DNA from: Sabellastarte sp. h YS-2021
Taxonomy: Eukaryota > Annelida > Polychaeta > Sabellida > Sabellidae
Length of the DNA stretch: 64,000 bases
Assembly (NCBI GenBank): GCA_964017235.1
Contig: OZ024935.1
Span: 30,731,596-30,795,595 of the forward strand
Direction of reading: 5' to 3'
Shown here: positions 2,429-57,102 of the stretch, in pieces
How positions within the stretch are numbered: the first letter of the stretch is position 1
Layout of the letters: each line of letters begins with the position of its first letter
Notes under the pieces: model-generated
Told to the model about the DNA's origin: nothing
What the model saw: the letters and a program-made list of their open reading frames with translations, nothing else
The model's database searches: none
Position numbers and translations under genes: made by a program

Positions 2429-2525
2429 CAGCAATTGTCCATTGGATAGGATGTATTAACGCAATAAAATTGCAAATTTAATAAGTAAATTAAATTTTTA
2501 TAAGTTAATACCCTATCCAATGGAC
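2429..2525 (+). repeat. Internal complementary region of element 0
   Basis: Starts CAGCAATTGTCCATTGG and ends CCTATCCAATGG, so the outer parts are inverted copies of one another. The AT-rich centre is the complement of the element's right end (see 2738-2799) joined to an inferred left end. The right terminal repeat follows after a spacer that is G/C-rich and still resembles the matching spacer of copies A-C (CCCACC, then CCCCGCT). Confidence 0.8.
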
Positions 2526-2799
2526 ACACAAGACCCTCCCACCGACCCCGCTATCAGCTTACTAGGGGTCTAATAGTTTTAGACAACGAAAAAGATGCTA
2601 TGACGTCATGTTGTCTAGACAGGAAGTAAATACCATGCGCCACCTGGCGAATGCACAGTACTGGGACCGGCCAGCCGGTGGAAACACAGGACGTCTTTTT
2701 CTGGCGTTTGGCGGGCCGGTCTGCGCCGACCGGTTTAGCAATTGTCCATTGGATAGAGTATTAACTTATAAAAATTTAATTTACTTATTAAATTTGCAA

Positions 2800-4840
2800 T
2801 TTTATTTGCATTTACACTGTTATATAGAAATCCTTGTTTGGTAGAAATATTAATTTTTTTGTCAAATTTGACCTCAACCGTACTCAACTGTCTTGTATAA
2901 ATAAACAGGTCCAGTGCTTACACTAGAAACAAGTGTACTTCAAATATTCATAAGATGTTAAATGGCAGAGACTCATAAATTTGTCTTTCTGTAGTAAGTT
3001 TTTCACACTGATGAAAGTTCTGCAGACTCTGTGTACTGTATAACATCTATCATTTAACTGTGCTAGTAGTGTAAGCTAGTGGACGGATAATAAAAAGGTC
3101 CTAAAATATCAGGCTTTTTAAGTACACAGCAAGAAGGAAATACAAAGTTTTGAGAATAAAAAATTGAATATATGTATAATAGAAGGTAGTGCTGGGATCA
3201 TCGGTGATTTCTTAGGATCGAGCACTGCTTGTTAGAAGTGAATTGAACTCGAGTAAATGAAGGAAATTAAAAATGAAACGAGAAGGTCCACATAGTATCA
3301 CTAATTATATTTAGTCCCATTTTATTGCAAGAAAATATGTATTTTGTGCCGCTTAAATTGTAAAGGTATAAATGTAAGAATACTGCTTGATATATTTCGT
3401 AAAAACTCGAGTAAATATTATGCAGATTGATGTTATCTCTGTATATCACCCACTGAGTTGTGAGTCGAGTTACGACCAACTTGTCCCAGCACTGTTAGAA
3501 GGTTATATAATGGAGGTTCTACAGTAACTGTATTTGGGTCTGATTGCTAATGTTGTTTTTTTTTTCTACTGTTAAAGAAGCATATTTCTGATGTTCACAG
3601 TTGCTTTCTATGTCAAATTGAGCTGAAGTATTATTCAAAATTATGCTTGGAAACAAATCCCCTTATACAATGTTGCACTGAATTTTAGGGTCATTTACAA
3701 TGTACATTATACAATTGCAGTATATATTTAAGCCAGTAACTTGCTTTAGTTGTTGATATTTCAGATGTGATCGCATTGATTTCGGTGTGCTTACATCCAT
3801 TAATATTTGTGAATATACTAGTTTTTCCTGAGTTCTGGTGCTTACCTTAGTTGTTGTGCATTAAATTTGTAAAAATAGTTTATGTATTTTTACCATTCAC
3901 ATTGCCCCTAGTAGGTTAAAATGACAAGTTTAAGTATGTATATATGCTGTCGGAAACTTCAATCCATCTGAACTTCAAATTCTGATATCAGAAACTTCAA
4001 ATACAAGTTGTGATGTCAGATCTTCATCAAGACGTACATAGTTTTGTTGTTGCTACTAATTAGTCAGATGCTGTGTGTGTTAGTTGACGTGTTTATGCAA
4101 TGCCAGTTGGTCATGTAACAAGTTGAGATTTTTATACAAGTTATAACTTGTATGGGTGAACTGTTACAAGTTGCAATTTCTTGTTCAATAAGCCACTTTA
4201 ATATTTACAAGGTATTATTCCAACAAAAGGTTTGATTCAAATAAAACTGGTTTTGTCGTACTTGTACAACTTTGTGGTACAACTTGGGTTTGTTGGGTGT
4301 TGACATTCTCCTGAGGCTACAACTTGTACAGTGGGATATTTTGAAGTTTATGAAGTTTTACATTAATTATACAAGTTGCATCTAGTACAAAATCTCAATG
4401 TGAACATGACTTGTACACACAGAGCACATACTCAGTAACTCTTGTAGTGTTTGTTGCTTTGTAATATTTCCCTAGTTTTGCATGAACAGACGGTTGTTAC
4501 AGACCAATTAAAATTTGACAAAAAGCACAGGTGTCCAGTTTTGAATATTACCTGAACACAAATACTGAAAAAAAGGAAATGTGCCTCAGCTGAAATATAG
4601 TCCCGAGTCCTTTTGATAACTGCTTTGACTGGTTTCACAGTTTAAGCCAAACAAGAATATCCAGACGTTTTGAATGTTATAACTTGTTTTCACCAATAAA
4701 TGAAAAAAAAATACTTCCGTAGCAGTACATCTTCCTTAAACTCTGTCGAATCATTCATACTCTTTATGTCAGCATGCCAAACACTTATTTCTCATTTAAA
4801 AAGTAATTAATACTCCCAAGTCCTTGACATAAAACCACAG
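2800..4840. other. Intron / upstream sequence without a recognised gene
   Basis: AT-rich DNA between element 0 and the first exon. I see no exon-like ORF. The only structure is a cluster of ACAAGTTG/CAACTTGT words at about 4115-4410, listed separately. Confidence 0.5.
4134..4153. repeat. 20-bp perfect palindrome in a cluster of ACAAGTTG words
   Basis: The 20 bases are identical to their reverse complement (centre TTATAA, arms ATACAAG/CTTGTAT). Between about 4115 and 4410 the octamer ACAAGTTG or its complement, or close variants, occurs at least seven times. Confidence 0.8.
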
Positions 4841-8596: not shown

Positions 8597-8613
8597 TTTT
8601 ATTACGCTACAAT

Positions 8614-8762
8614 AGCTTACCATGTGGGACTTAATGCTGTTCTCGGGTTGCCACACCCGGGGCCAACGTCTTAGAAAAAAAGACCGTTCTTGTTAGCCAC
8701 CGGATATACTGGTAGTTGTCGTCACGTGATACCTTCTGACCAATCGTCCTACTTTCTCGTTG
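8614..8762 (+). repeat. Left inverted terminal repeat, copy A
   Basis: 149 bp, from AGCTTACCATGTGGG to TTTCTCGTTG. It is the reverse complement of 15026-15174 with few mismatches. It includes the AAAAAAAGACCGTTCTTG and TATACTGGTAGTTGTCG blocks. Confidence 0.93.
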
Positions 8763-8987
8763 GCCACGATTGACTGGTAGCAGTTTGTAAATATACAGAC
8801 ATTTTCATTTATTTCTCAGACTTTACTTATTGTTGGAGGCTAATATTTGCATATTTCTTGTAATATATATCATAGATTATTCTGTTAAAGTTTCATTTCC
8901 ACAGGATAAGTATTTTTATTGCAGTCGCGTGTTTTGAGTTTTCCTCGGTTCAGGCTATTTCTTTCTACGTCTTTTATTGCGTACAAA

Positions 8988-11153
8988 ATGTCTACACATC
9001 AAGCAAATAAAGACAAACCGAGAGCGCAGAAATGCCGCCATTTCTGCTTTAGTTTTGATACACATAATTTCTGCCCTACCTGTAGGGAGGCTGGCAAGGG
9101 AGATGACCCCTGTGTCACCTTTGAAACCCCTTGCGAAGTTTGCACGTCTTTTACAGATGAGCAACTTCAGAAAATCCAAAACCGGAAACGGTATTTGAAA
9201 AAGCAGAAAGCGACAACTAGTTCCAAAGATGAACTAGATCTTTTGGGTGAAGGCGACGGGGATTCCTTCACTGGGTCTAATGCAGACCTCGAGTGTGCGG
9301 CTGATAGCCTTTTTACCTCACCCCCCCGTCCACAACCTCTTGCCTTCAGTTCCCTGTCTTTGAAAACGCCAGCAAAAACCGTCCCACCCACCCCTGGCAC
9401 TGCTTTGCAAAATAAAATCCAGTCAAATTTAGAGAAATCACTCGGTGATTCCTTAAATATACACTTACAGCAGCAAATGGGTTCCTTTCAGGCATCCATG
9501 TTGGAAGCTTTTAGGTCACTCCGAGAGGAGTTGACTGTAAAACAGAAAGTCGAGGCACAGCCCTCGACTCTTGCTTCAAAACCTGGCTTGTCCAGTACTT
9601 CTGCTGCCCCTCTGGATTTGCCCCCTCCGAGATCTGGTACTAACATTCCAAGCGAGGATATGGATGTGGACTACGGTCCAACTCTTCCTCCCCGTTTAGT
9701 ATCTACTCAACCTTCCTCGGATCAGTACGTTGCCCCCTCTGAAGGTCATCCCGAAGAGGTTTCGTACTCTCACAAAAAGCAAAGCCATAGGCAGCCAGTT
9801 GACCCGAGCTCTGCCTCGGACCAACTAAATGAGGATTCCGATGAACCTCGGATCCCTTCTTCTAGATCCAAAAAGCACTCTGACAAGAGCAAACATAAAT
9901 CAAGATCTAGATACGTGTCTTTTACCTCAGAGGAGGACCACTCCCCTGTAGCCAGACACAGGTCTTCTAAGCCCTCTAGGGCTCAGCCCTCAGGAGTTGC
10001 TTCTGATCAAGACCTCCCACAACATGATCCAGACCCCCCTTATTATAGGGCAGTAGCTTTGTCTGACATGCCCTCACAATACTCTGAGGAAGTTGATACC
10101 TTCAGGCGTATTTTGTCTCTCCCTGACCCCAGGGAATCTATGCCCAGGTCTTCCACCTCGGTGTTGGGTCTGGATGATGAAAAAGGCCGTCAAGAGCTCA
10201 GACCTAGAGGTCCCTCCTCTATTCTTCCACTTAGCTCAGTTATCAAGGACGCCTTTGATAAATTCCAACATGACTTTAAGGCTGCCAACTTATCTGAGGG
10301 AAAATATGTCAAGCCTCCTCCCTCAACTTCAAAGTGGTACAAGGTGGGACAACCAACTTTTCAAGACAAAATCCAGGAGTTGAATACAGACTTTGCTAAG
10401 ATCTGTATTACTCCTAGACCTTCTGGGCCCCCAGTAGCCAGAGTTCCCCTTCCAGTCCTCAAGGAGCTAGAACTTCAGGCTAGACAAAATATCTCTACCC
10501 TCAACTTCACCGCTGCTTTTGCCAAGACCTCCTCTTCTTGCAATGCTTCATTGGAAAAATGCCAACATAGCATCAAGTCTACGGTCAAGAAGATTAAATC
10601 TCAGATTCAAAAAGGTGCCGATCCTGAGAGAGCAGCAAAGCGCGGATATGAGGAAGTAGCTGACTACTTAGATTTTTGGAACAAGACAGTACTTGTTCAA
10701 CACAGGGCCCTCACTTGTCTCAGCAAATCTCTAGCCCATATTTTGCAGAGGGAATTATACTCTATGGCTAATACCGGCTTGCTTAGGCGCGAAGCCGAGA
10801 TGACTCTATTACATCCTCAATTAGGAGAAACGAGACGTCAAGAACTCAGGAACTCGTCCTTTTGGGACGCCTCCTTGTTCGAGTCTCAATTAGTGAAGGA
10901 AGGTGAGGACTTCCTTCTCAAAAAAGGCACCTCAAAAAATTCTCAGGGTTTTCCACCCTACCAGAATAAGCCCTTTCGTGGTCCCCACAAGAAAAGAGGC
11001 TCCTACAGGAAACGCCCCTATGGGGGCAATACCTCTCAAAGCAGTAACCAGTCCTTTCCTTCGGGAAGAGGAAAATCCAACTTCAGAGGCTTCAGGGGTC
11101 GTTTTCGACCCCACAATAGAGGAAGGGGGCGTGGAAACCCCCCTCCCCAATGA
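8988..11153 (+). CDS. DIRS ORF1, gag-like protein, copy A
   Basis: 721-residue gag-like protein, probably packaging element RNA. The open frame extends upstream to 8919. I chose the ATG at 8988 because its product start MSxHQANKDKPRAQKC is conserved in all three copies. Residues 16-52 hold a Cys/His cluster (C16, C20, C29, C32, C42, C49, C52) that looks zinc-binding. A Lys-rich and acidic region follows, then a long Ser/Pro/Arg-rich middle with RSxxKPSRAQPSG, and a conserved helical domain at about residues 420-650. The C-terminus is an Arg/Gly-rich nucleic-acid-binding tail (GRGKSNFRG, NRGRGRGN). The stop is TGA in the context CAA-TGA-CTC, and the same frame then stays open into the YR frame. 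The 3' end overlaps the RT frame by about 250 nt. No frameshift is seen. Confidence 0.9.
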   Translation: MSTHQANKDKPRAQKCRHFCFSFDTHNFCPTCREAGKGDDPCVTFETPCEVCTSFTDEQLQKIQNRKRYLKKQKATTSSKDELDLLGEGDGDSFTGSNADLECAADSLFTSPPRPQPLAFSSLSLKTPAKTVPPTPGTALQNKIQSNLEKSLGDSLNIHLQQQMGSFQASMLEAFRSLREELTVKQKVEAQPSTLASKPGLSSTSAAPLDLPPPRSGTNIPSEDMDVDYGPTLPPRLVSTQPSSDQYVAPSEGHPEEVSYSHKKQSHRQPVDPSSASDQLNEDSDEPRIPSSRSKKHSDKSKHKSRSRYVSFTSEEDHSPVARHRSSKPSRAQPSGVASDQDLPQHDPDPPYYRAVALSDMPSQYSEEVDTFRRILSLPDPRESMPRSSTSVLGLDDEKGRQELRPRGPSSILPLSSVIKDAFDKFQHDFKAANLSEGKYVKPPPSTSKWYKVGQPTFQDKIQELNTDFAKICITPRPSGPPVARVPLPVLKELELQARQNISTLNFTAAFAKTSSSCNASLEKCQHSIKSTVKKIKSQIQKGADPERAAKRGYEEVADYLDFWNKTVLVQHRALTCLSKSLAHILQRELYSMANTGLLRREAEMTLLHPQLGETRRQELRNSSFWDASLFESQLVKEGEDFLLKKGTSKNSQGFPPYQNKPFRGPHKKRGSYRKRPYGGNTSQSSNQSFPSGRGKSNFRGFRGRFRPHNRGRGRGNPPPQ

Positions 11154-13167
11154 CTCCTCCAAAGCCTCACTCAGTCCACCAGTAGGAGGTCGCCTCCGTT
11201 CTTTCAGGAGAGACTGGCTCACAAACAAATGTTCTCAAAACGTGTTAAACATTATCACCAATGGCTACGTTCTGCCATTCCGTTCAAAGCCAAACTTGAT
11301 CAGATTTCCTCTGATTCTGTCAGAGTACAAGGCCCAACAAAAAGACCAAGCCTTGGCTACTTGTATCCAGTCTCTCCTGTCAAAGAACGCTATCGAAAGG
11401 GTAGACAATGTAAAATCTCTCGGGTTTTACAGTCGCCTGTTCCTAGTACCCAAGCCTCACCAAAAGTGGAGGCCAGTCATAGACTTAAGCAGGCTCAATA
11501 CTTTTCTACACGTAGAAAAGTTCAAAATGGAAACTCCAGAGTCCATCAGGACCTCCCTGATTCCAGGGGAGTGGGTATCGTCGATAGATCTGTCGGACGC
11601 CTACCTGCATATCCCCATCCACCCAAACTCAAGGAAATACCTAAGGTTTTGCTACAAGGCTCAGGTGTTCCAATTCACCTCCCTCCCGTTCGGACTAGCC
11701 ACAGCCCCCCAGGTCTTTACAATGATCGTAAAGGAAGTGAAACTAATGGCCCTCTCAAGAGGACTCAGAATTCACCAATACCTGGACGACTGGCTGATCA
11801 GGTCCCAGTCTCAGGAGGAAGCACAAGTGAACACTCAGGCAGTAGTAGAACTGACTCAGTCCTTGGGATGGATAATAAATCAGGAAAAATCAGAACTGAA
11901 ACCTACACAGGTGTTTTCGTTCGTGGGCTACGAATACCACCTCGATTCAGCCCTTGTAAAACCCACTCAAGAGAGATGGCTCAAACTTCAGGATTTGATC
12001 CTACGACTCAAGTCAAAACGTGTTTTGACTGCAAGATGTTTGATGTCTCTAATTGGGTTGCTAGCCTCAACGGAGAAAATGGTCCCGGAGGGACGCCTTC
12101 ACATGAGGCCCTTTCAGTTTCATCTCAAGGAGCACTGGAGATATCCTCAGTCGCTGGACAACCTCCTTCCCTGGACAGAAGCCATTGCAGCCCACCTAGA
12201 TTGGTGGCAAAATCCCTCCAAGGTGATGAAAGGTGCAGACCTTCATCCCAAAGACCACAGTATCCAACTCTTTACCGACGCCTCAAACGAAGGTTGGGGC
12301 GCTCACTTAGACCAAAATTTTACCAAAGGTCTGTGGTCAGATCGGGAAAAAAGGCTTCACATAAATGTCCTAGAATTGAAGGCGGTCTCCCTGGCCCTTC
12401 GAGACTTCAAGGACCAGTGCCAGAATCAAACAGTGTTGGTTGCGACGGACAACTCAACAGTGGTAGCCTACATCAACAAACAAGGAGGAACACACTCGGC
12501 AGAGATGTGTGCTCTCCTGTGGAAGATCATGACCTGGTGCCATCACTATCACATAACATTGAAAGCCAGGCACATTCCAGGGTGCCTGAATGTGATGGCC
12601 GACCTGCTATCCAGGTCCAACCAAGTGCAGTCAACCGAATGGTCTCTGCACCCACAGGTCTTCAAACAGATCTGCCAGAAGTGGTTCACCCCTCATGTAG
12701 ACTTGTTTGCCACTCACCTGAACCACAAGCTCCCTCTATACGTGTCTCCTATCCCAGACCCAAAGGCCTGGGACATAGATGCTCTGAACATAAACTGGAC
12801 CAACCTCACAGCATATGCGTACCCTCCTACGGCTCTCCTTCACAAGGTGATCCAAAAGATCAGGCAATGCCAGTGCCTGATCATCGTAATAGCCCCAGGC
12901 TGGCCAGGGATGCCCTGGTTTTGGGACCTAGTGCAGCTCTCAACAGAGATCCCACTGCAACTCCCAGTGTCAACAACCCTACTCAAACAGTCCCACAAGC
13001 TGGTGTTCCACAACAACCCCCAGCACCTGAACCTCCACGCCTGGTGTCTAGGAGCGGACAACTCCAAGAACAAGGCTTCTCTGTGGAGGTGGCAGAGAGA
13101 ATTGCTGCCCCTCAGCGGTCATCAACAAGGACCATCTGGCCAGGGATGCCCTGGTTTTGGGACCTAG
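10903..13167 (+). CDS. DIRS reverse transcriptase / RNase H polyprotein, copy A
   Basis: Open frame of 754 codons in +1 relative to gag. It begins with a non-ATG codon; the first ATG is at 11020, so translation may start there or by frameshift from gag. The RT domain spans residues 120-370: SSIDLSDAY with Asp229, LPFGLATAP (261-269) and the active-site YLDD at 293-296. The RNase H domain (about 455-572) carries the full set Asp459 (FTDAS), Glu491 (VLELK), Asp516 (ATDNS) and Asp567 (MADLLSR). Residues 595-725 are the DIRS-specific region (DLFATHLN, YAYPP, APGWPGMPWFWDL) that others have likened to Dam-type methyltransferases. Copy B continues further, to residue 768; here a 236-bp duplication replaces the last residues with SGQGCPGFGT. 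All catalytic residues remain. Confidence 0.9.
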   Translation: MRTSFSKKAPQKILRVFHPTRISPFVVPTRKEAPTGNAPMGAIPLKAVTSPFLREEENPTSEASGVVFDPTIEEGGVETPLPNDSSKASLSPPVGGRLRSFRRDWLTNKCSQNVLNIITNGYVLPFRSKPNLIRFPLILSEYKAQQKDQALATCIQSLLSKNAIERVDNVKSLGFYSRLFLVPKPHQKWRPVIDLSRLNTFLHVEKFKMETPESIRTSLIPGEWVSSIDLSDAYLHIPIHPNSRKYLRFCYKAQVFQFTSLPFGLATAPQVFTMIVKEVKLMALSRGLRIHQYLDDWLIRSQSQEEAQVNTQAVVELTQSLGWIINQEKSELKPTQVFSFVGYEYHLDSALVKPTQERWLKLQDLILRLKSKRVLTARCLMSLIGLLASTEKMVPEGRLHMRPFQFHLKEHWRYPQSLDNLLPWTEAIAAHLDWWQNPSKVMKGADLHPKDHSIQLFTDASNEGWGAHLDQNFTKGLWSDREKRLHINVLELKAVSLALRDFKDQCQNQTVLVATDNSTVVAYINKQGGTHSAEMCALLWKIMTWCHHYHITLKARHIPGCLNVMADLLSRSNQVQSTEWSLHPQVFKQICQKWFTPHVDLFATHLNHKLPLYVSPIPDPKAWDIDALNINWTNLTAYAYPPTALLHKVIQKIRQCQCLIIVIAPGWPGMPWFWDLVQLSTEIPLQLPVSTTLLKQSHKLVFHNNPQHLNLHAWCLGADNSKNKASLWRWQRELLPLSGHQQGPSGQGCPGFGT
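11229..13156 (+). other. Overprinting open frame between gag and YR, copy A
   Basis: In the gag frame, no stop occurs between the gag TGA (11151-11153) and 13445. The frame therefore runs through the whole RT/RNase H region as an alternative reading, with an ATG at 11229. Its product would be Pro/Ser/Arg/Gln-rich and looks disordered and basic. In copies B and (before its deletion) C the same frame is open. In copy B it runs directly into the YR domain; in copy A the 236-bp duplication shifts YR out of this frame. Whether it is translated is unknown. It could be a long N-terminal extension of YR or a by-product of codon bias. Confidence 0.55.
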
Positions 13168-13373
13168 TGCAGCTCTCAACAGAGATCCCACTGCAACTCC
13201 CAGTGTCAACAACCCTACTCAAACAGTCCCACAAGCTGGTGTTCCACAACAACCCCCAGCACCTGAACCTCCACGCCTGGTGTCTAGGAGCGGACAACTC
13301 CAAGAACAAGGCTTCTCTGTGGAGGTGGCAGAGAGAATTGCTGCCCCTCAGCGGTCATCAACAAGGACCATCT
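12902..13373 (+). repeat. Exact 236-bp tandem duplication in copy A
   Basis: 12902-13137 is repeated at 13138-13373. The two units look identical base for base. Copies B and C have a single unit. Because 236 is not a multiple of three, the RT frame ends early and the YR frame changes phase relative to the upstream frame. Confidence 0.93.
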
Positions 13374-14503
13374 ACAAGTCAAAGTGGGCCCTATTTGAAA
13401 AATGGTGCAGAGAAAATTCGGTGGATTTCTCCACTCCATCTGTGAAACAAATCTCAGATTTCTTCATGTACCTGTACCAAGACCTAAACAGGCGCCCCTC
13501 GACCATTGATGGCTACAGGACTGCAATCGTTGACACTTTGGGCCCAACGGCCCAACATATTGCACACAATGCAGACCTTCATAGGTTACTCTCCAGTTTT
13601 CACAGGGATCGTCCTAAAAGTTCCAGAAACTTACCCAAGTGGAACCTTTCTGTTGTCCTTAACGAGCTCACCAAAGCACCTTTTGAGCCCATGAAAGACT
13701 CAGACCTCAAACATCTCACTTTAAAAACTGCTTTCTTGCTAGCCTTGGCCTCCGGCAAGCGCCGCAGCGAAATCCATGCCTGGGTCGCTAACAAAGTATC
13801 CAATTTAGGCCAATGGGAAAAGGTTGCCTTGTTCCCTTCTTCTGATTTCATAGCCAAAAACCAACTAGCAAGAGAAGGTTCTCAAAGTGTGTCTCCGGTG
13901 ACTATCCCTGCTCTGACTACCATTGTGGATAGACAGTTTAAAGAAGACAGGACCCTGTGTCCCGTACGGGCCCTGAGGTTTTATTTGGACCGAACTAAAG
14001 ACCTGAGAGGGTCTCGTTCTCTCCTTTTCATCTCCTTTAAGAAAGGACATACCTCAGACATCAGACCCGCTACACTCTCTTCATGGTTGAAACAAACCAT
14101 TTTACTTTGTTACAAACAAGCAGATCAACAAGCCTTGGACTTGGTCCAAGTCAAAGCGCATGACATCCGGGCCTTCGCGGCCTCTAAGGCCTTTTACGGT
14201 GGGGTATCGGTGGACCAAATCATGCAAGCCTGTCACTGGAAAGCTCACAACACATTTACAAATTTTTACCTAAAAGACCTTACTTGGTCGGACACCGACA
14301 ACAATTTGTACCTGGGACCCGTAGTGGCTGCACAACAAGTCCTAGATCCTTCCCCTCAGACCAGTTGTCCTCGGAAAGAAAAAAGGGGGGGGGGGGCACA
14401 TCCGCTACAACCAAGTCTTCAGGAGTCTTTCCCAGGATCTAGGTATTCCTTTACCTTCAAGATGTTACGGGTAAGGTCATTTTATTCTTTAATTATCAAG
14501 TAA
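13157..14503 (+). CDS. DIRS tyrosine recombinase, copy A
   Basis: Integrase of the element, thought to insert a circular DNA copy by strand exchange. The open stretch is 448 codons with no convincing ATG at its 5' end, so the true start is uncertain. The N-terminal SAM-like region runs about residues 68-155 (SKWALFEKWC, RPSTIDGYRTAI). The catalytic residues can be placed as Arg202 (GKRRSEIHAW), His335 and Arg338 (KAHDIRAF), His360/Trp361 (ACHW) and the nucleophile Tyr371 (FTNFYLKD, codon at 14267-14269). The spacing fits the family. The C-terminus follows a 12-G run and reads GGGAHPLQPSLQ, whereas copy B, with 11 G, ends in another frame. The catalytic core is intact. Confidence 0.88.
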   Translation: MGPSAALNRDPTATPSVNNPTQTVPQAGVPQQPPAPEPPRLVSRSGQLQEQGFSVEVAERIAAPQRSSTRTIYKSKWALFEKWCRENSVDFSTPSVKQISDFFMYLYQDLNRRPSTIDGYRTAIVDTLGPTAQHIAHNADLHRLLSSFHRDRPKSSRNLPKWNLSVVLNELTKAPFEPMKDSDLKHLTLKTAFLLALASGKRRSEIHAWVANKVSNLGQWEKVALFPSSDFIAKNQLAREGSQSVSPVTIPALTTIVDRQFKEDRTLCPVRALRFYLDRTKDLRGSRSLLFISFKKGHTSDIRPATLSSWLKQTILLCYKQADQQALDLVQVKAHDIRAFAASKAFYGGVSVDQIMQACHWKAHNTFTNFYLKDLTWSDTDNNLYLGPVVAAQQVLDPSPQTSCPRKEKRGGGAHPLQPSLQESFPGSRYSFTFKMLRVRSFYSLIIK

Positions 14504-14863
14504 TTTCTATTAAGGACTTATTTAGTTGTCATTAATCTCATATTCAGCTTGTAAAAATTTTATGAGACGCCCAACCACTGGGTTGGTCAGTCATACGTGA
14601 AGGGCCCTTTTGGACCCTCAGACCTCGGAGTGAGCACTGCTGCACTTCCGTCCTACAATAAAACATCTAGACAGTTTTTAGTACTGTCTCTCATTTACTT
14701 AGGTTTTTGGCTCGTTACAGGCCCGGCCTTCGGGATCGGGGCACTGTAAATGGGACTCAGACTGGTATTTCTGGCACTATTCTATAAATATTAATTCAAA
14801 ATCTTAGAAAAAATGACATACCTTCCAGTCTCAGCTGTAATCCCGCCACCGGGCGGTTGAATT
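14504..14863 (+). promoter_or_regulatory. 3' untranslated region of copy A with hairpin
   Basis: Non-coding stretch between YR and the ICR. It contains GGCTCGTTACAGGCCC followed by a GC-rich hairpin. In copy B this is a 7-bp stem (CCCGATC/GATCGGG) with a TTCGG loop; copy A has a mutated left arm. The hairpin is kept in all three copies. A role in RNA processing or strand transfer is only a guess. Confidence 0.5.
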
Positions 14864-14968
14864 CAGCATTAAGTCCCACATGGTAAGCTATTGTAGCGTA
14901 ATAAAATTGAAAATTTTAATTACTTAAATGTAGCTTTTATAAGCTACAAGCTTACCATGTGGGACTTA
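14864..14968 (+). repeat. Internal complementary region, copy A
   Basis: 105 nt. The first 43 nt are the complement of the element's left end (8597-8639) and the remaining 62 nt the complement of its right end (15155-15216). This corresponds to the joined ends of a circle, the diagnostic feature of DIRS elements. Confidence 0.95.
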
Positions 14969-15025
14969 GAAGAGTCCCACCCTGCCTCCCCGCTGTTTAC
15001 AGCTGAGGGGTAGGTTTAAAAATTT

Positions 15026-15174
15026 CAACGAGAAAGTAGGATGATTGGTCAGAAGGTATCACGTGACGACAACTACCAGTATATCCGGTGGCTAACAAGA
15101 ACGGTCTTTTTTTCTAAGACGTTGGCCCCGGGTGTGGCAACCCGAGAACAGCATTAAGTCCCACATGGTAAGCT
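15026..15174 (+). repeat. Right inverted terminal repeat, copy A
   Basis: 149 bp, CAACGAGAAAGTAGG to ATGGTAAGCT, the inverse of 8614-8762. It is followed by 42 nt of right-end-specific sequence ending TTTTCAA, and then by GTT in the flank. Confidence 0.93.
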
Positions 15175-15216
15175 TGTAGCTTATAAAAGCTACATTTAAG
15201 TAATTAAAATTTTCAA

Positions 15217-16432
15217 GTTAATTTGGTTTTGAGAGTATTAATCATTTGTTTTAATGTTTTTATTCCAGTTGCATGCTTCCTAGACCCTGTTGATAAGTGT
15301 GTATATGTCATGCTGGAAATTCTAATCTAATAAGGTTTGGAATTTTGTTGACAGAAACTGCAGTCCTTGTAATTAAATTCATTTAGCGAATCATAAAACA
15401 AGGATAAAGTTTCTGTTGACAGAGTTTCAGATTTTATCAGATTGGACTTTCATGCACAACATAAAGATGATGTACAAGAAACATTGAATGTGAGAAATTA
15501 TTTACAAATTACTCAAAGAACTTGGATTTCTAGAGCTGAAAAGAAGAATGTTTCCTTTGCAATATTTGAATTTCCTAGCAAAGTACCAATTATCAGGGAT
15601 GCCCACAGTGTGCTCCGAAAAAGTGCCTCATTCATTTGTTTGTGATCCTTTGAGAAGTGCTGTTTCTTGTACAAAAGGTTTTGGTTGAATTCAGATTACC
15701 CTTTTTCTCTAAATCATTCACATTCTGTAAATTTCCAAAATGTGGTCTTCGTACAAATTGTATGGTATAGAATGCCTTGAATAAACTTTTATCACCATTG
15801 TATGAATTTTATTCCTAGTTAAAATTGATGGCAGGTCTTTTGCTTCTGGTTAAAATTAGTACAATGCTTAGACCACTCCTAAGTTAGATTTTTAGTATTA
15901 CTTAGATTTCAAATAAGACATTGTGAAACCGTGTTCATAAACTTCCCTAATTCTTGTTTGGTGAGTGCAGATTCCAAGAAAAACTCAAATAAGAAACCTT
16001 CCCTCATTTAGATCTGAGGTGACCTTATCCTTAAGTATAACCTTAAGTATTTTTTTGTCATTCCAGCCCCAGGTCTTTTCTGACATTTTGAAAATAATTT
16101 TTTTTCAGACCTTATTTTGGAAAAATAATACATTATGTGAAAGATGGAACTGTTATGAAGTTACTCTTTCAGACTTTTTTTCTATTTTGACAGCTTCCCT
16201 TGGTTTGGCAACTGATTGAAACTTGTATTTTTTTTTTTACCCCAATGTATCTGTGTACACTCATAATTAACTAGAAGTAAACCTGAACCAAACTGGCACC
16301 GGTTTCAGTGCAGAATGGTCGGAGTCGCTTCATGCCACAGAAACAGGAAGTAAGCTGTAGCCATATGAACCAGTTGGCCCAAAGAGTAACTTTCTGCTTT
16401 ACTGTACACTTGATTATATCTCCCGCATGCAG
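15217..16432. other. Intron sequence after copy A
   Basis: AT-rich intron DNA leading to the acceptor at 16431-16432. No other element recognised. Confidence 0.5.
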
Positions 16433-22236: not shown

Positions 22237-22505
22237 TTTTACTATGTTAGTATATATTACCTAACAGACTAATACCATTGTTCCGGCACAAGCCAGTACT
22301 GCCTAACATCATGCCCACTTGGCGTACATGGGAAAAATGAGTCCTCTAGTGAGAGGGGAAGGCATTATGCCTTAATGGCTGCCATTACGCTTGGGGCGTC
22401 TTTTTGTGAAGTTTGGTGGCACTGGCTTGTACTTGACCAATGGCATTAGTCCGTTAGGTAAGATATTAACTTATAAAAAATTTAATTTAGTGTTTAAATT
22501 TTCAA
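22237..22505 (+). mobile_element. Short non-autonomous DIRS derivative
   Basis: 269 bp with DIRS-type ends but no coding region and no ICR. The left end TTTTACTATG followed by ATTACCTAAC parallels TTTTATTACG followed by TTACC in copies A-C. The right end TTAACTTATAAAAAATTTAA leading to TTTTCAA parallels element 0 and copies A-C. Inverted repeats of about 55 bp face each other (CCTAACAGACTAATACCATTG and CAATGGCATTAGTCCGTTAGG), with a small palindrome AAGGCATTATGCCTT between them. No target duplication is seen; TTT follows the right end. Its parent family is not in the window. Confidence 0.7.
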
Positions 22506-24801
22506 TTTTATCTTAAAATTAGTGAACAAAAATTTATTTTCATCAGTAATGGAAGCTCATCAGTTATGAGCACAAGTGTTTCAGTTCCTGACCCCTCACA
22601 TCTAAACATGTGGGTTCAATCCCATTGATCTTATTTTATAAGGATGTTCTGTCAAGTACTTTCACCATGCCAAGAGTTGCTGGACACTGCTTTTCTTTGC
22701 CCTTAATCCTTGTTCACTTGGGCTGGATATAAGTTTCAGCTATGTTGTATATGCCATTTATTATCAGTCCATGAAATTCTAATATTTTGGATCATGATCA
22801 CTCAAGTGTTAAGATGCTAAAATCTATCAAAGTTTGGTTATTAAGTGCTGACTTATGCTCAGATTGTGAAAATTAAATGTGAATATTGATGTTATCACCT
22901 GGATTTGTTTGTGTTTTTAATGTACAGTACACGGTATCAAGTTACAGATAGGTAAAACAATGGGTTCATCTCTAAAACTAACAGAACTACCTTGATGTTG
23001 TTATTGCTGTTTAAAAGTGTGATACCTAATATATAAATATCTACATTATTGAGTTTGACTTTCTCATTGTGCATTAAAGGTCTGGCAATTCTTCAGATTC
23101 AGAGAATACAAACAATTGTATATGCTGATATATTGTTTAATAATTTAATACTTAAATTATTGTAGAAATCAACAGGAATATTTTCCATCATGCGATTAAA
23201 GTTGATTTTAAGCTGTTAAAATGAAATTTATGTTGGTCAAAGCCATTGCAGACACCTTGATTGAATATGAGACACAAGACATAACCGTGCCATTTCTTGC
23301 TCATCACTAGCTATGACGAATGTTCAGAAATGAAACTATACTCTGAAATGCATCATAGGAGACCCAGTGGCCTAGTGGTTGGTTAAGGTTGGGAATGGGT
23401 TTAGTAGGCCCAAAGTCTCAGTATCCAGAGCATTTTACCCATCTTTAGTAAACGTTAGCATTTCATCACTAGATTCTTACCTCAGTGGTGGCATGTTCAA
23501 TTACAACTCAAGTGGGATACAGTAGTAGAAGCCTGCTCTCTTATGATCTGAGAAGTAGAAATGGACACACCCTGCCTCCGACCTTTACTTGCTTAACTTT
23601 TTCCCTGATTTTAACCTTTCTGCAATAGAAACAGATTGTAACAAGTTTATATTTTTTCTTCTCTTCAATTGATAAGTGATCTTATTGTATTATTCACACC
23701 AGTTCTTTTCACATGTATGTCCTAATTGTGTCTTTTTTAGTTTAAAATTTTTTTCCTCATTTTATTTCAGTATTTCATGTTTCTAAAATAATAACTCTCG
23801 TACAGAAGTACCAAAATTCTTTCTAATATTTCTCCTTTCTATATAAAAACTTGTTAAAATCCCCACGCATTTTGAGTGGTTCATTATAAAATCTAATTTA
23901 GGAAGCAATACATCTACCACAATTGGTCTACCATCGCAGTGAGTAAGAAGTTCAATTTGATAAGAGAAAATGTAAAATAATTATTTAATGTAGTTAATAT
24001 TATTCAGACCACAGCAAATCTTGTTTTATCAAAATACACTGAAAGCCAATTAAAATTTGACAGAATTACATTAAGACATCCAAATTGTTTAAAATATGAA
24101 TGTAAAGATAGGATAGTAATATGTCAAACTAGAAGCTGTCTTAAACCAATGGTGATTATTGTGCTTATAGTCCATAGAAATGTATCAGAAAAGTAGTCCC
24201 TATATTATAAAGTCTATGGAATATCTGAAATAAGCTTGCCTCTTTTGTAAGTAATGATCAGGCTGTTCTTGTATCCAAACATAAAACATTGGGGGTTGTA
24301 AATAGCTAGGTGCAGAAAAATATATTTGCTTACATACCCCCAGCATCCGCCCAATGTAGTTATGGTTTGAATCTCAGCACAGATAAACACGTTTGAAATT
24401 TTGCACCAGATATTACTAACAGTGGTTTTGCCCACTACTGTACAGTGGTTTCTTCCACTGCTAAATATAAGTCAGGACTGACTTTCAATATCTATTTTCT
24501 TCATACTGCATTTATATCACAAAGGCGGTTTCCAGGAATTTCAGTTATATGTATATCCAAACTTTAGAGATTTAGTAACTAGCTCACATAGCCAATTTTT
24601 TTTCTGCAAGATTACACATTTATATACTCCAGGCTGAAACAGGATGACCATTTATCGAGTTATCAATGTCCCTGGGGTTGTTCAGCCTGTCACATGGGGA
24701 TAGGACCCAGTGACAGAGGACCACCATTTTAAGTGGTCATCGGAACCACCATGTAAATGTTACATTATATTCTACAACATGCTATTTAACTGGTCTCACA
24801 G
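22506..24801. other. Intron sequence
   Basis: AT-rich intron. A GGTTCAATCCC word near 22610 and a TGGCCTAGTGG word near 23370 resemble tRNA promoter boxes, but no convincing SINE was found. Confidence 0.45.
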
Positions 24802-40249: not shown

Positions 40250-40266
40250 TTTTATTACGCTACAAT

Positions 40267-40415
40267 AGCTTACCATGTGGGACTTAATGCTGTTCTCAGG
40301 TTGCCACACCCGGGGCCAACGTCTTAGAAAAAAAGATCGTTCTTGTTAGCCACCGGATATACTGGTAGTTGTCGTCACGTGATAACTTCTGACCAATCGC
40401 CCTACTTTCTCGTTG
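40267..40415 (+). repeat. Left inverted terminal repeat, copy B
   Basis: 149 bp, inverse of 46426-46574, with the same block order as in copy A. Confidence 0.92.
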
Positions 40416-40640
40416 GCCACGATGACTGGTAGCAGTTTGTAAATATACAGACATTTTCATTTATTTCTCAGTATTCACGTATTGTTGGAGGCTAATATTT
40501 GAATATTTCTTTAAATATATTTCATAGATTATACTGTAAAATTTTTAATTTCACAACTTAAGTATTTTCCTTACAATCCGCGTGTTTTGAGTTTTCTCGG
40601 TTCAGGCAATTTCAATTGTACGTCTTTTTATTGCGTTAAA

Positions 40641-42789
40641 ATGTCTCTCCATCAAGCAAACAAAGACAAACCGAGAGCTCAGAAATGCCGCCATTTTTGC
40701 TTCAGTTTTGATACTCGTAATTACTGCCCTACCTGTAGGGAGGCTGGCAAGGGAGATGACCCCTGTGTCACTTTTGAAGCACCCTGCCATATTTGCACGT
40801 CTCTCACTGATGAACAATTGCAAAAAATTCAAAACAGGAAGCGGTACTTAAAAAAGCAAAAAGCGGAAACTAGTTCCAAAGATGAACTAGATCTCTTGGG
40901 TGAAGGCGATGGGGACTCTTTTACTGGTTCTAATGCAGACCTTGAGAGTGCTGCCGATAACCTCTTTACCTCACCCCCCCGTCCTCAACCTCTCGCCTTC
41001 AGTTCTTTATCACTAAAGACCCCAGCCAAAGCTGTTCCACCCACCCCAGGTACTGTTTTACAAAACAAAATTCAAAGAAATCTAGAGAAATCCCTGGGTG
41101 ATTCCTTAAATATACATATCCAGCAGCAAATGGGTTCCTTCCAGGCATCCATGTTAGAAGCATTTCAATCACTCCGAGAGGAGTTGGCAGTTAAAAAGCC
41201 TGCCGAGGTTGATCCCTCGCCTCATGCTTCAAAAGCTGGCCCATCCAGCAACTCTGCTGCTACCCCCTCCGAGGTCAAGTACTAATGCACAGTCCGAGGC
41301 AATGGATGTGGACGTTGGTCCAGCACTCCCTCCTCGACTAGTACTTAACCAAACTTCCTCGGATCAGTATGTTGCCCCTTCTGAAGCTATACCGAAGGAT
41401 TCCTCGTACTCACACAAAAAACAAAGCCACAGGCAAACAGTAGTACCGAGCTCTGCCTCGGATCAACTGGATGAGGATTCCGACGAACCTCGGATCCATC
41501 CTAGACCTAAGAAACACTCTGACAAGAGCAAGCATAAATCTAGGTCCAGATATGTGTCATCTTCAGAGGAAGATCACTCCCCTGTGGCCAGACACAGGTC
41601 TTCTAAGCCCTCTAGGGCTCAGCCCTCAGGCGCAGCTTCTGATCAAGACCTCCCACAACATGATCCAGACCCCCCTTATTATAGGGAAGTAGCCCTGTCT
41701 GACATTCCCTCCCAATACTCTGAAGAGGTAGACACCTTCAGGCGCATTCTTTCTCTCCCTGACCCCAGGGACTCTATGCCTAGGTCTTCAACTTCAGTGT
41801 TGGGTCTGGATGACGAAAAAGGCCGTCAAGAGCTCAGACCTAGAGGTCCTTCCTCTATCCTGCCACTTAGCTCAGTTATCAAGGACGCCTTTGATAAATT
41901 TCAACATGATTTCAAAGCTGCCAATTTATCTGAGGGAAAATATGTCAAGCCTCCTCCATCCACTTCTAAGTGGTATAAGGTTGGACAGCCCACTTTTCAA
42001 GACAAAATCCAGGAGTTGAATACGGACTTTGCCAAGATCTGTATTACTCCTAGACCTCCTGGGGCACCAGTAGCCAAAGTCCCTATGCCAGTCCTTAAGG
42101 AGCTGGAACATCAGGCTAGACAAAATATTTCAACCCTCAATTTCACCGCTGCCTTTGCCAAAACCTCTTCTTCTTGCAATGCTTCCTTGGAAAAGTGCCA
42201 ACATAGCATCAAGTCAACTGTCAAGAAGATAAAGTCTCAGATCCAGAAAGGTGCCAATCCTGAGAAAGCAGCAAAGCACGGATATGAGGAAGTTGCTGAG
42301 TACTTGGATTTTTGGAACAAGACGGTTCTTGTTCAACATAGAGCTCTTACCTGTCTCAGCAAATCGCTAGCCCATATTCTCCAGAGGGAATTATATTCCA
42401 TGGCTAATACCGGCTTGCTTAGGCGCGAAGCCGAAATGACTCTATTGCATCCCCAGCTAAGGGAAACGAGACGCCAAGAACTTAGGAACTCGTCCTTCTG
42501 GGACTCCTCCTTGTTCGAGACTCAACTTGTAAAGGAAGGTGAGGACTTCCTTCTCAAAAAAGGCACCTCAAAAGATTCTCAGGGTTTTGCACCCTACCAG
42601 AATAAGCCCTTTCGTGGCCCCCACAAGAAAAGAGGCTCCTACAGGAAACGCCCCTATGGGGGCAATACCTCTCAAAGCAGTAACCAATGCTTTCCCTCGG
42701 GAAGAGGAAAATCCAACTTCAGAGGCTCCAGGGGTCGTTTTCGACCCCACAATAGGGGAAGGGGGCGTGGAAACCCCCCTTCGCAATGA
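40641..42789 (+). pseudogene. DIRS ORF1 gag-like, frameshifted, copy B
   Basis: Starts at the conserved ATG 40641 (MSLHQANKDKP). The N-terminal Cys cluster is complete. Near 41262 an 11-nt deletion relative to copy C shifts the frame, so the first part ends at TAA 41283-41285 after SAATPSEVKY. The rest of gag remains open in its original frame from about 41209 to the TGA at 42787-42789, including the helical domain and the RG-rich tail. The lesion sits in the Ser/Pro-rich linker. Unless the frame is bypassed, this copy makes only a truncated gag. Confidence 0.88.
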
Positions 42790-44845
42790 CTCCTCCAAAG
42801 CCTCATTCAGTCCACCAGTAGGAAGTCGCCTCCGTTCTTTCAAGAGAGACTGGCTAACAAACAAATGTTCTCAAAACGTGTTAAACATTATCACCAATGG
42901 CTACGTTCTGCCATTCCGTTCAAAGCCAAACTTGATCAGATTTCCTCTGATTCTATCAGAGTACAAAGCCCAACAAAAAGACCAAGCCTTGGCCACTTGT
43001 ATCCAGTCTCTCTTGTCAAAGAACGCCATCGAAAGGGTGGAAAACGTAAAATCTCTCGGGTTTTACAGTCGCCTGTTCCTAGTACCCAAGCCTCACCAAA
43101 GGTGGAGGCCAGTCATAGACTTAAGCAGGCTCAACACTTTTCTACATGTAGAAAAGTTCAAAATGGAAACCCCGGAGTCCATCCGGACTTCCCTGGTCCC
43201 AGGGGAGTGGGTATCGTCGATAGACCTGTCAGACGCATACCTTCACATCCCCATCCATCCAAACTCAAGGAAGTACCTAAGGTTTTGCTACAAGGCCCAG
43301 GTGTTCCAGTTCACCTCCCTACCTTTCGGACTGGCCACAGCCCCCCAGGTCTTTACGATGATCGTAAAGAAAGTGAAACTAATGGCCCTCTCAAGAGGAC
43401 TCAGAATTCACCAATACCTGGACGACTGGCTGATCAGGTCCCAGTCCCAGGAGGAATCTCAAAGGGACACACAGGCAGTGGTAGACCTAACCCAATCCTT
43501 GGGTTGGATAATCAACCAAGAAAAATCAGAACTGAAACCTACTCAGGTGTTTTCGTTCGTGGGCTACGAATACCACCTAGATTCAGCCCTTGTAAGACCC
43601 ACTCACGAGAGATGGCTCAAACTTCAGGATTTGATCCTACGACTCAAGTCAAAACGTGTTTTGACTGCAAGATGTTTGATGTCTCTAATTGGGTTGCTAG
43701 CCCCAATGGAGAAAATGGTCCCGGAGGGACGCCTTCACATGAGGCCCTTTCAGTTTCATCTCAAGGAGCACTGGAGATATCCTCAGTCGCTGGACAACCT
43801 CCTTCCTTGGACAGAAGCCATTGTAGCCCACCTAGATTGGTGGCAAAACCCCTCAAATGTGATGAAAGGCGCAGACCTTCATCCCAAGGACCACAGTATC
43901 CAACTCTTTACCGACGCCTCAAACGAAGGTTGGGGCGCTCACTTAGATCAAAATTCTACAAAAGGGCTGTGGTCAGAGCGGGAAAAAAGGCTACACATAA
44001 ATGTCCTGGAATTGAAGGCGGTCTCCCTGGCCCTTCAAGACTTCAAGGACCAGTGCCAGAATCAAACAGTGTTAGTTGCGACGGACAACTCAACAGTGGT
44101 AGCCTACATCAACAAGCAAGGGGGAACTCACTCAGCAGAGATGTGTGCTCTCCTGTGGAAAATCATGACCTGGTGCCATCACTACCATATAACATTGAAA
44201 GCCAGGCACATTCCAGGGTGTCTGAATGTGATGGCCGACCTCCTATCCAGGTCCAACCAAGTGCAGTCAACAGAATGGTCTCTGCACCCTCAGGTCTTCA
44301 AGCAAATCTGCCGAAAGTGGTTCACCCCTCATGTAGACTTATTCGCCACTCACCTGAATCACAAACTCCCTCTATATGTGTCTCCTATCCCAGACCCAAG
44401 GGCCTGGAACATAGATGCTCTGAACATAAACTGGACCAACCTCACGGCCTACGCCTACCCTCCTACGGCTCTCCTTCACAAGGTGATCCAAAAGATCAAG
44501 CAATGCCATTGCCTGATCATCGTGATAGCCCCAGGCTGGCCAGGGATGCCCTGGTTTTGGGACATAGTGCAGCTCTCAACAGAGATCCCACTACAACTCC
44601 CAGTGTCAACGACCCTACTCAAACAGTCCCACAACTATGTGTTCCACAACAATCCACAACAGCTGAACCTCCACGCCTGGTGTCTAGGAGCGGACAACTC
44701 CAAGAACAAGGCTTCTCTGTGGAGGTGGCAGAGAGAATTGCTGCCCCTCAGCGGTCATCAACAAGGACCATCTACAGGTCAAAGTGGGCCCTATTTGAAA
44801 AATGGTGCAGAGAAAATTCGGTGGATTTCTCCACTCCATCTGTGA
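42539..44845 (+). CDS. DIRS reverse transcriptase / RNase H polyprotein, copy B
   Basis: 768-codon open frame, +1 relative to gag, with the first ATG at 42656. It shows the best-preserved full-length RT frame of the three copies. Motifs are in the same places as in copy A: SSIDLSDAY, LPFGLATAP, YLDDW, then RNase H FTDAS, VLELK, ATDNS and MADLLSR, then DLFATHLN, YAYPP and APGWPGMPWFWD. The C-terminus reads GPSTGQSGPYLKNGAEKIRW then ISPLHL, overlapping the YR N-terminal region in another frame. Copy A lacks this ending. No internal stop was seen. It could supply RT to the other copies in trans; this is inferred. Confidence 0.92.
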   Translation: MRTSFSKKAPQKILRVLHPTRISPFVAPTRKEAPTGNAPMGAIPLKAVTNAFPREEENPTSEAPGVVFDPTIGEGGVETPLRNDSSKASFSPPVGSRLRSFKRDWLTNKCSQNVLNIITNGYVLPFRSKPNLIRFPLILSEYKAQQKDQALATCIQSLLSKNAIERVENVKSLGFYSRLFLVPKPHQRWRPVIDLSRLNTFLHVEKFKMETPESIRTSLVPGEWVSSIDLSDAYLHIPIHPNSRKYLRFCYKAQVFQFTSLPFGLATAPQVFTMIVKKVKLMALSRGLRIHQYLDDWLIRSQSQEESQRDTQAVVDLTQSLGWIINQEKSELKPTQVFSFVGYEYHLDSALVRPTHERWLKLQDLILRLKSKRVLTARCLMSLIGLLAPMEKMVPEGRLHMRPFQFHLKEHWRYPQSLDNLLPWTEAIVAHLDWWQNPSNVMKGADLHPKDHSIQLFTDASNEGWGAHLDQNSTKGLWSEREKRLHINVLELKAVSLALQDFKDQCQNQTVLVATDNSTVVAYINKQGGTHSAEMCALLWKIMTWCHHYHITLKARHIPGCLNVMADLLSRSNQVQSTEWSLHPQVFKQICRKWFTPHVDLFATHLNHKLPLYVSPIPDPRAWNIDALNINWTNLTAYAYPPTALLHKVIQKIKQCHCLIIVIAPGWPGMPWFWDIVQLSTEIPLQLPVSTTLLKQSHNYVFHNNPQQLNLHAWCLGADNSKNKASLWRWQRELLPLSGHQQGPSTGQSGPYLKNGAEKIRWISPLHL

Positions 44846-45873
44846 AACAAATCTCAGATTTTTTCATGTACCTGTACCAAGACCTAAACAGGCGCCCCTC
44901 GACCATTGATGGTTACAGGACTGCTATCGTTGACACTTTGGGCCCAACGGCCCAACACATTGCGCACAATGCAGACCTTCATAGGTTACTCTCCAGTTTT
45001 CACAGGGATCGTCCTAAAAGTTCCAGAAATTTACCCAAGTGGAACCTTTCTGTTGTCCTTAACGAGCTCACCAAAGCACCATTTGAGCCCATGAAAGACT
45101 CAGACCTCAAACATCTTACTCTCAAAACTGCTTTCTTGCTAGCCTTGGCCTCCGGCAAGCGCCGCAGCGAAATCCATGCCTGGGTCGCTAACAAAGTAGC
45201 TAATTTAGGCCAATGGGAAAAGGTAGCCTTGTTCCCTTCTTCTGATTTCATAGCCAAAAACCAACTAGCAAGAGAAGGTTCTCAAAGTGTGTCACCAGTG
45301 ACTATTCCTGCTTTGACTACCATTGTAGATAGACAGTTTAAGGAAGACAGGACCCTGTGTCCCGTGCGGGCCCTGAGGTTCTATTTGGACCGAACTAAAG
45401 ACCTGAGAGGGTCTCGTTCTCTCCTTTTCATCTCCTTTAAGAAAGGACATACCTCAGACATCAGACCCGCTACACTCTCCTCATGGTTGAAACAAACCAT
45501 TCTACTTTGTTACAAACAAGCAGATCAACAAGCCTTGGACTTGGTCCAAGTCAAAGCGCATGACATCCGGGCCTTCGCGGCCTCTAAGGCCTTTTACGGT
45601 GGAGTATCGGTGGACCAAATCATGCAAGCCTGTCACTGGAAAGCTCACAACACATTCACAAATTTTTACCTAAAAGACCTTACTTGGTCGGACACCGACA
45701 ACAATATGTATCTGGGACCCGTAGTGGCGGCACAACAAGTCCTAGATCCTTCCCCTCAGACCAGTTGTCCTCGGAAAGAAAAAAGGGGGGGGGGGCACAT
45801 CCGCTACAACCAAGTCTTCAGGAGTCTCTCCCAGGATCTAGGTATTCCTTTACCTTCAAGATGTTACGGGTAA
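42865..45873 (+). CDS. DIRS tyrosine recombinase with overprinting N-terminal extension, copy B
   Basis: 1,002-codon open frame starting at ATG 42865, in the gag frame 76 nt after the gag TGA. The first about 630 codons overprint the RT/RNase H gene and give a basic Pro/Ser/Arg-rich sequence without known domains. The YR proper begins near 44750 (RSKWALFEKWC). The catalytic set is present: GKRRSEIHAW, KAHDIRAF, ACHW and FTNFYLKD with the Tyr codon at 45667-45669. After an 11-G run the C-terminus reads HIRYNQVFRSLSQDLGIPL, a frame different from copies A and C. Whether translation starts at 42865, by read-through of gag, or further downstream cannot be told. Confidence 0.82.
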   Translation: MFSKRVKHYHQWLRSAIPFKAKLDQISSDSIRVQSPTKRPSLGHLYPVSLVKERHRKGGKRKISRVLQSPVPSTQASPKVEASHRLKQAQHFSTCRKVQNGNPGVHPDFPGPRGVGIVDRPVRRIPSHPHPSKLKEVPKVLLQGPGVPVHLPTFRTGHSPPGLYDDRKESETNGPLKRTQNSPIPGRLADQVPVPGGISKGHTGSGRPNPILGLDNQPRKIRTETYSGVFVRGLRIPPRFSPCKTHSREMAQTSGFDPTTQVKTCFDCKMFDVSNWVASPNGENGPGGTPSHEALSVSSQGALEISSVAGQPPSLDRSHCSPPRLVAKPLKCDERRRPSSQGPQYPTLYRRLKRRLGRSLRSKFYKRAVVRAGKKATHKCPGIEGGLPGPSRLQGPVPESNSVSCDGQLNSGSLHQQARGNSLSRDVCSPVENHDLVPSLPYNIESQAHSRVSECDGRPPIQVQPSAVNRMVSAPSGLQANLPKVVHPSCRLIRHSPESQTPSICVSYPRPKGLEHRCSEHKLDQPHGLRLPSYGSPSQGDPKDQAMPLPDHRDSPRLARDALVLGHSAALNRDPTTTPSVNDPTQTVPQLCVPQQSTTAEPPRLVSRSGQLQEQGFSVEVAERIAAPQRSSTRTIYRSKWALFEKWCRENSVDFSTPSVKQISDFFMYLYQDLNRRPSTIDGYRTAIVDTLGPTAQHIAHNADLHRLLSSFHRDRPKSSRNLPKWNLSVVLNELTKAPFEPMKDSDLKHLTLKTAFLLALASGKRRSEIHAWVANKVANLGQWEKVALFPSSDFIAKNQLAREGSQSVSPVTIPALTTIVDRQFKEDRTLCPVRALRFYLDRTKDLRGSRSLLFISFKKGHTSDIRPATLSSWLKQTILLCYKQADQQALDLVQVKAHDIRAFAASKAFYGGVSVDQIMQACHWKAHNTFTNFYLKDLTWSDTDNNMYLGPVVAAQQVLDPSPQTSCPRKEKRGGGHIRYNQVFRSLSQDLGIPLPSRCYG

Positions 45874-46259
45874 GGTCATTTTATTTTTTAATTATCAGGT
45901 AATTTCTATTAAGGACTTAGTCAGTTGTCGTTAATCTCATATTTCAGGTTAAAAATTTCATGAGATGCCCGACCACTGGGTTGGTCAGTCACACGTGAAG
46001 GTCTAATAGGGACCCTTAGACCTCGAAGTGAGCACCGCTGCACTTCCGTCCTACTACCAAACATCTGGACATTTTTAGCACTGTCCCTTTTTACTCAGGT
46101 TTTTGGCTCGTTACAGGCCCGATCTTCGGGATCGGGGCTCTGTAAAAGGGACTCAGACTGGCATTTCTGGCACTATTCTGTATATATTAATTCAAATCTT
46201 AGAAAAAAATTACATATCTTCCAGTCTCAGCTGTAATCCCGCCACCGGGCGGTTGAATT
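45874..46259 (+). promoter_or_regulatory. 3' untranslated region of copy B with conserved hairpin
   Basis: At 46118-46136 a 7-bp stem CCCGATC/GATCGGG closes a TTCGG loop. A second small stem (GACCA/TGGTC) lies near 45970-45985. Both are kept in copy C. Confidence 0.5.
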
Positions 46260-46364
46260 CAGCATTAAGTCCCACATGGTAAGCTATTGTAGCGTAATAA
46301 AATTGAAAATTTTAATTACTTAAATGTAGCTTTTATAAGCTACAAGCTTACCATGTGGGACTTA
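46260..46364 (+). repeat. Internal complementary region, copy B
   Basis: 105 nt, CAGCATTAAGTCCC to GTGGGACTTA. It has the same 43 + 62 nt composition from the two ends as in copy A. Confidence 0.95.
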
Positions 46365-46425
46365 GGAGAGTCCCACCCTGCCTCCCCGCTGTTTACAGCT
46401 GAGGGGTAGGTTTAATAAAAAATTT

Positions 46426-46574: not shown

Positions 46575-46616
46575 TGTAGCTTATAAAAGCTACATTTAAG
46601 TAATTAAAATTTTCAA

Positions 46617-48040: not shown

Positions 48041-48057
48041 TTTTATTACGCTACAAT

Positions 48058-57084: not shown

Positions 57085-57102
57085 TTTTATAGCGAAATAC
57101 CC

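Follow-up and report, generated by a model that had tools for sequence, protein, structure and literature searches.

The window, which is the whole stretch of 64,000 nucleotides that was analysed, contains several DIRS copies and a unit of 269 bp at positions 22237-22505 (Table 1). The unit has TTTTACTATG at its start and TTTTCAA at its end with TTTT directly after, and TTT is present at both edges (22237-22239 and 22506-22508). Its facing arms, 22252-22311 and 22407-22466, are 60 nt long and 80% complementary, and blastn reports an inverted repeat of 75 nt at 79%. With DNA parameters the folding energy of the strand is -53.9 kcal/mol, while shuffled versions average -25.9 (z -7.3), and none of 200 shuffles folded as well. 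No Rfam family was above threshold across the window, i.e. no known structured RNA was found there. A unit of this length has no room for a gene, the RT/RH/MT and tyrosine recombinase genes are absent from it, and no open reading frame of at least 250 aa, the limit of the listing used, overlaps it. No ICR pair was found within 22237-22505, where the facing arm was the sole partner detected. An earlier note on this DNA had described DIRS-type termini and facing inverted repeats at this place, with neither a coding region nor an ICR, and these statements are borne out; its coordinates agree with the termini, and the unit extends to 22508 when the NTT is counted.

Table 1. Features of the 269-bp unit and other DIRS copies in the window.
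Feature	Position	Strand	Description or basis
Whole ICR-less DIRS derivative	22237..22508	+	269 bp plus terminal NTT (TTT, 22506-22508)
Left terminus, outer left ITR	22237..22311	+	About 70-76 of some 190 nt; alignments and inverted-repeat arm
Deletion junction	22306..22318	+	Left-end homology passes to right-end homology; pairwise alignments to left and right ends
Right ITR, nearly complete	22312..22466	+	Alignments to DIRS right ends
Right extension (rE)	22467..22505	+	Ends TTTTCAA, without left-end counterpart; similarity to 2464-2525 and 2738-2805
Full-length younger-family DIRS	40250..46619	+	ITRs, ICR 46260-46364, RT/RNase H, weak YR match
Second younger-family DIRS	48041..54399	+	97% identical to the 40250-46619 copy
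Third younger-family DIRS	8597..15219	+	Internal 236-bp tandem duplication
DIRS 3' end (ICR, ITR, rE)	2436..2802	+	From an element crossing the left edge of the window

The assignment of the two ends to DIRS rests on alignment rather than on the terminal motif. The ten-letter TTTTACTATG has four exact matches in the window, three of them inside a satellite array, and 13 matches with one mismatch where 9.1 are expected, so that the motif alone is not significant. The alignments used 21 left and 16 right ends selected by hand, among which L058, L059 and L062 have a common flank and are not independent. The left ends had been cut one base in, hence the alignments start at nt 2-3 of the unit in 18 of 21 cases; the other three start at nt 10. 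Left-end homology stops at nt 70-76 in 18 of the 21 alignments and at nt 61 in L043, and it extends with low identity to nt 98 in L060 and nt 136 in L047. Right-end homology starts at nt 70-82 in 13 of 16 alignments, with a length of about 187-202 nt, and stops at nt 266-267 in all 16. The remaining starts are at nt 158 (L033), nt 36 (L007) and nt 1 (L030); homology to the last two crosses the junction, and the unit aligns nearly end to end with the 3' region of L030. As judged from these alignments, some 75 nt of the left ITR remain in the unit, the right ITR and its extension are nearly whole, and the ICR is lost. The alignments confine the junction to about a dozen bases, possibly with a short microhomology at it. 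A candidate origin of the left end as a piece of the right ICR half was rejected, as the sequence agrees with the left terminus both in its outer 20 nt and after CAGAC.

Compared with the DIRS ICR half at 2464-2525, the right extension of the unit shows 84% identity (63 nt aligned), and compared with the right end at 2738-2805 it shows 81% (69 nt aligned); the element at 2436-2802 has the closest right extension within the window. Facing inverted repeats and the lack of genes would also suit a fold-back derivative of some DNA transposon, with no more than a resemblance to DIRS ends. This origin is next to impossible, given that the DIRS right-end homology spans the right ITR together with an extension found only at the right, that the two ends are asymmetrical, and that relatives have both DIRS gene remnants and an ICR. 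The facing ITRs are DIRS1-like in being conserved in their inner part and divergent in their outer part, with the left arm shortened.

The source of the unit lies outside the window's three young-family copies. These are mutually 90-97% alike, their ITRs, ICR and right extension are readable in the sequence, and Pfam finds RT and RNase H in them; for the recombinase, Phage_integrase matches only weakly and does not reach the curated cut-off (E 0.08 and 0.011). The unit is not from this young family; the copy at 40250-46619 has the same architecture and is not its direct parent. Elsewhere in the genome at least 39 other places resemble the unit at 73-85% (among the best 40 of 621 candidates), nearly all of them in the right half only. 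In this family the ITR is about 190 nt long. An ICR is present in two of the relatives, L030 and L031. Parts of their sequence upstream of this ICR are homologous to the DIRS of the window, in the RNase H region and in the recombinase frame; in this comparison the RT domain gave no match. On these alignments the unit belongs to an old, abundant and decayed DIRS1-like family. The autonomous parent called for by the earlier note has been approached in part: some relatives retain an ICR and remnants of genes, but the full-length DIRS in the window is not the direct parent.

MITEs are short, non-coding and form multi-copy families. The unit is likewise short and non-coding with terminal inverted repeats, and its size, hairpin and intact termini would suit a MITE-like family of miniature DIRS elements mobilised in trans. 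However, a MITE family consists of many homogeneous copies, and here one copy was found among the best candidates. When the whole unit was compared with the 1.79-Gb genome, only the unit itself joined both ends (best 40 of 621 candidates), and the left 94 nt gave no second copy in which the ends are joined (best 40 of 74 candidates). Among 20 loci fetched from the latter search, a left end followed by a right end within the flank was seen only in the unit and in L020, which is the same place as L033, described below. The middle 105 nt, which span the junction, had no other genome match. A core-gap-core pattern of the unit matched the unit alone in the genome; it demands exact cores, which are present in 13 of 33 left and 14 of 48 right segments (sets that include ICR halves and mirror images), so that its sensitivity is perhaps 10-20%, or one copy per five to ten. 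A pattern built on cores common to the family, with a spacing of 101-161, gave no genome match, a weaker check since the unit itself was also unmatched. The corresponding pattern for the young family gave one short element and one deleted copy bearing an ICR. In these genome searches the best 40 candidates were scored and very common words were skipped, so that a few diverged copies may be missed and the copy counts are lower bounds.

A high copy number of the unit is contradicted by these searches, and there is no amplification as far as the best candidates reach; a family of such units is not supported. A MITE-like, trans-mobilised family is very improbable, as a second copy with the same junction was not found among the best candidates in the genome. 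The description as a miniature DIRS therefore stands only in part: the unit is derived from DIRS and keeps both ends, while the near-identical copies expected of a MITE-like element did not appear, and the single copy found among the best candidates is the result that the note itself had named as refuting. The question of how it could be copied without an ICR largely dissolves, because nothing shows that the unit was ever copied.

The right flank (395 nt) has no other match in the genome, so that the repeat homology stops no more than a few bases from the end that was predicted. The genome search with this flank revealed no empty site; the left flank was compared within the window. NTT follows 20 of 30 distinct right ends of the genome, the unit included, and the frequency of TT in the window is 0.108. 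These 30 are what remains of 39 ends after the removal of three without a recognisable terminus and six with repeated flanks. A strict expression for right termini matched just three ends and was replaced before the count. The end of w2k, and probably that of L013, was misplaced by the script, and both were scored as not NTT; L077, one base off the repeated flank, was scored separately and also as not NTT.

Some right ends have flanks in common. Eight of them (L058, L059, L062, L075, L077, L079, L080 and L081) are followed by AATA(A/G)CAAAGTT, which points either to one duplicated unit or to repeated insertion at one place of another repeat. Four right ends without a visible ICR (L076, L082, L083 and L085) are alike by eye in their upstream sequence and their right flank, and here the DIRS 3' end seems to be embedded within a larger dispersed repeat.

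Three more short ICR-less derivatives are present in the genome, of 277, 610 and 233 bp, and the breakpoints differ in all four. In the 277-bp derivative (L005/L034, C5) about 88 nt of the left ITR are joined to most of the right ITR; no second copy was found among the best 40 of 1317 candidates. The 610-bp derivative (L033, C20) consists of the first ~340 nt of the left end and the last ~259 of the right end, beyond the ICR, again with no second copy among the best 40 of 2428 candidates. The 233-bp derivative (L096, C1) belongs to the younger family and shows the reverse arrangement: its left ITR measures 150 nt and its right end ~83 nt, with TTT directly after; it is the only short element that the young-family pattern gave at a spacing of 91-151. 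At a spacing of 152-212 the same pattern gave one internally deleted copy (L097). This copy was rejected as a second young short derivative, since its ICR is still present beside the internal deletion. At L097:1442-1838 both ICR halves extend into matching neighbouring sequence, which makes the symmetrical ICR of this deleted copy longer.

The loss of other parts was also observed. On C2 a distance of 1.95 kb, with an ICR-like junction in it, separates a left end from a right end; this is a deletion derivative that bears an ICR. As read by eye, the right half of the ICR is lost in L070, the ICR region is lost in L078, and ORF-like sequence is joined to the right ITR in L074. The complement of an end's own extension, i.e. 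the right ICR half, was clear in 18 of 35 right ends, weak in five and absent in 12 (background scores reach 31); the 35 are 37 rows less two left ends, L011 and L049. The 12 include the three old-family stubs, and in three others of them (L003, L061 and L070) blastn still detects a piece of the ICR. The sample is enriched for loss of the ICR, as 19 of its stretches were chosen for having no listed ICR partner, and its fractions are not genome rates. A match to the right extension beyond the left end of L038 is the junction of an ICR.

Taken together, the unit is very probably a dead-end derivative of an old DIRS1-like family, formed by internal deletion, that retained both ends and underwent no further copying. 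On this reading a DIRS copy whose termini had been made correctly would have been inserted at an NTT site by the tyrosine recombinase of the family; the ends and the TTT flank are observed, and the circle and the recombinase are taken from the published DIRS model. The alignments show that a deletion joined nt ~75 of the left ITR to a point ~199 nt from the right end; with it the genes, the entire ICR and the larger part of the left ITR were removed. The four short derivatives that keep both ends might nevertheless hint at a recurring process. Was the middle lost before or after integration?

Loss after integration is the reading that we rank ahead, and it is slightly more likely than not. A full DIRS would have been inserted, and its middle would later have been lost by chromosomal deletion or by instability of the inverted repeats. 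It is consistent with the deletions in L070, L078 and L074, which belong to the same family, and with the derivatives that keep an ICR, L097 and the C2 pair. The arms of the unit differ by ~20%, so that it is old and there was time enough for a chromosomal deletion. Against it, a large loss confined between both ends is required in at least four copies from two families. It is ranked ahead because the stubs come from aimed searches, because other partial deletions occur, because L034 lacks an NTT and because the arms are old.

Loss before integration is possible but distinctly less probable. The body and the ICR would have been lost at reverse transcription or on the double-stranded circle, when the ends were already complete. 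The resulting small circle would, with the same doubt, have been integrated by the recombinase of the parent, such ICR-less derivatives being a one-way by-product. This is suggested by the four short derivatives from two DIRS families, all of which lack an ICR and retain both termini, and by the NTT at the right end of the unit and, as read by eye, of L033 and L096. In addition, a ~5-kb chromosomal loss that spares both ends should be rarer than a loss running past an end. However, four stubs are few, coming from aimed searches among thousands of candidate places (2428 for L033). The right flank of L034 is ATG and not NTT, and the right terminus of L033 was not recognised as standard by the script used for the NTT count. 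Among 20 fetched left-end loci, some of which begin inside the ITR, just one (L037, the same place as L033) has a right end within ~1.5 kb beyond. Copies with other partial deletions also speak against loss before integration.

A related suggestion is that the ICR is needed solely to complete the ends, and that a circle with neither ICR nor genes could still be integrated by a recombinase acting in trans. This is rather unlikely. If it did apply, the unit, L034, L033 and L096 would be one-way products consisting of ends only, which we regard as equally doubtful. According to a 2017 review of Dictyostelium retrotransposons, the replication mechanism of DIRS-1 is not fully proven, and a tagged element without the ICR is proposed there as a test of the ICR requirement (PMC5633606).

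Several features of the unit agree with the DIRS1-like elements described by Piednoel et al. 2011 (PMC3266345), namely the facing ITRs, their divergent outer part, the right extension and the NTT ends; 23 of 28 described elements begin and end on NTT. The right extension is ~39 nt in the unit and 46-49 nt in five molluscan DIRS1-like elements (PMC3266345). In contrast, the 28 tabulated elements are 3793-6283 bp long, and the unit, at 269 bp, has no genes, no ICR and a left ITR of ~75 nt (PMC3266345). Decayed YR retrotransposons are also comparable. In fungi most copies are short, truncated or incomplete (PMC3783388), and 36 of the 75 families of X. tropicalis have degenerate repeats or ORFs (PMC9210276). 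The fungal survey is restricted to copies with a coding remnant, unlike the end-only unit (PMC3783388), and the Xenopus study is built on Repbase families and their copies (PMC9210276). End-only stubs are not mentioned in the parts of the fungal (PMC3783388) and Xenopus (PMC9210276) accounts considered here. Cryptons are also comparable in that non-autonomous families have been named that are short, non-coding and dependent on a tyrosine recombinase, but these are multi-copy families, in contrast to the single copy found here (PMC5753468).

The unit is a derivative of a known kind of element: it lacks two defining features of a DIRS and, among the best candidates searched, the copies that define a MITE family. 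Since it has neither an ICR nor genes, it is derived from a DIRS and is not itself a DIRS element. In the literature searched, with subscription papers and Repbase outside its scope, no description of end-only DIRS stubs was found. Alone the unit is a relic and means little. If it is true that end-only stubs are products of integration, they would show that two termini suffice for the integration step. Loss before integration is the interesting case, as it would mean that the ends alone are sufficient for integration. For annotation, end-only DIRS stubs resemble MITEs of unknown type and are easily misfiled.

Other DIRS sequences in the window and genome show further rearrangements. A further DIRS 3' end lies at 62382-62702. 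It belongs to another, divergent DIRS at 57082-62702, with a left end near 57082, the ICR and right end at 62382-62702, and, at 59325-60146, a match to the RT frame with ~30% identity to the young family. An exact tandem duplication of 236-238 bp, at 12900-13373, lies in the coding part of the copy at 8597-15219. At L049:1501-1809 a DIRS left end seems to have sequence like the right extension outside it, possibly a left-right hybrid terminus. Within 40200-47851 the DIRS at 40250-46619 appears to be inserted in a 155-bp tandem satellite, as the satellite array follows it and similar sequence is seen by eye before it.
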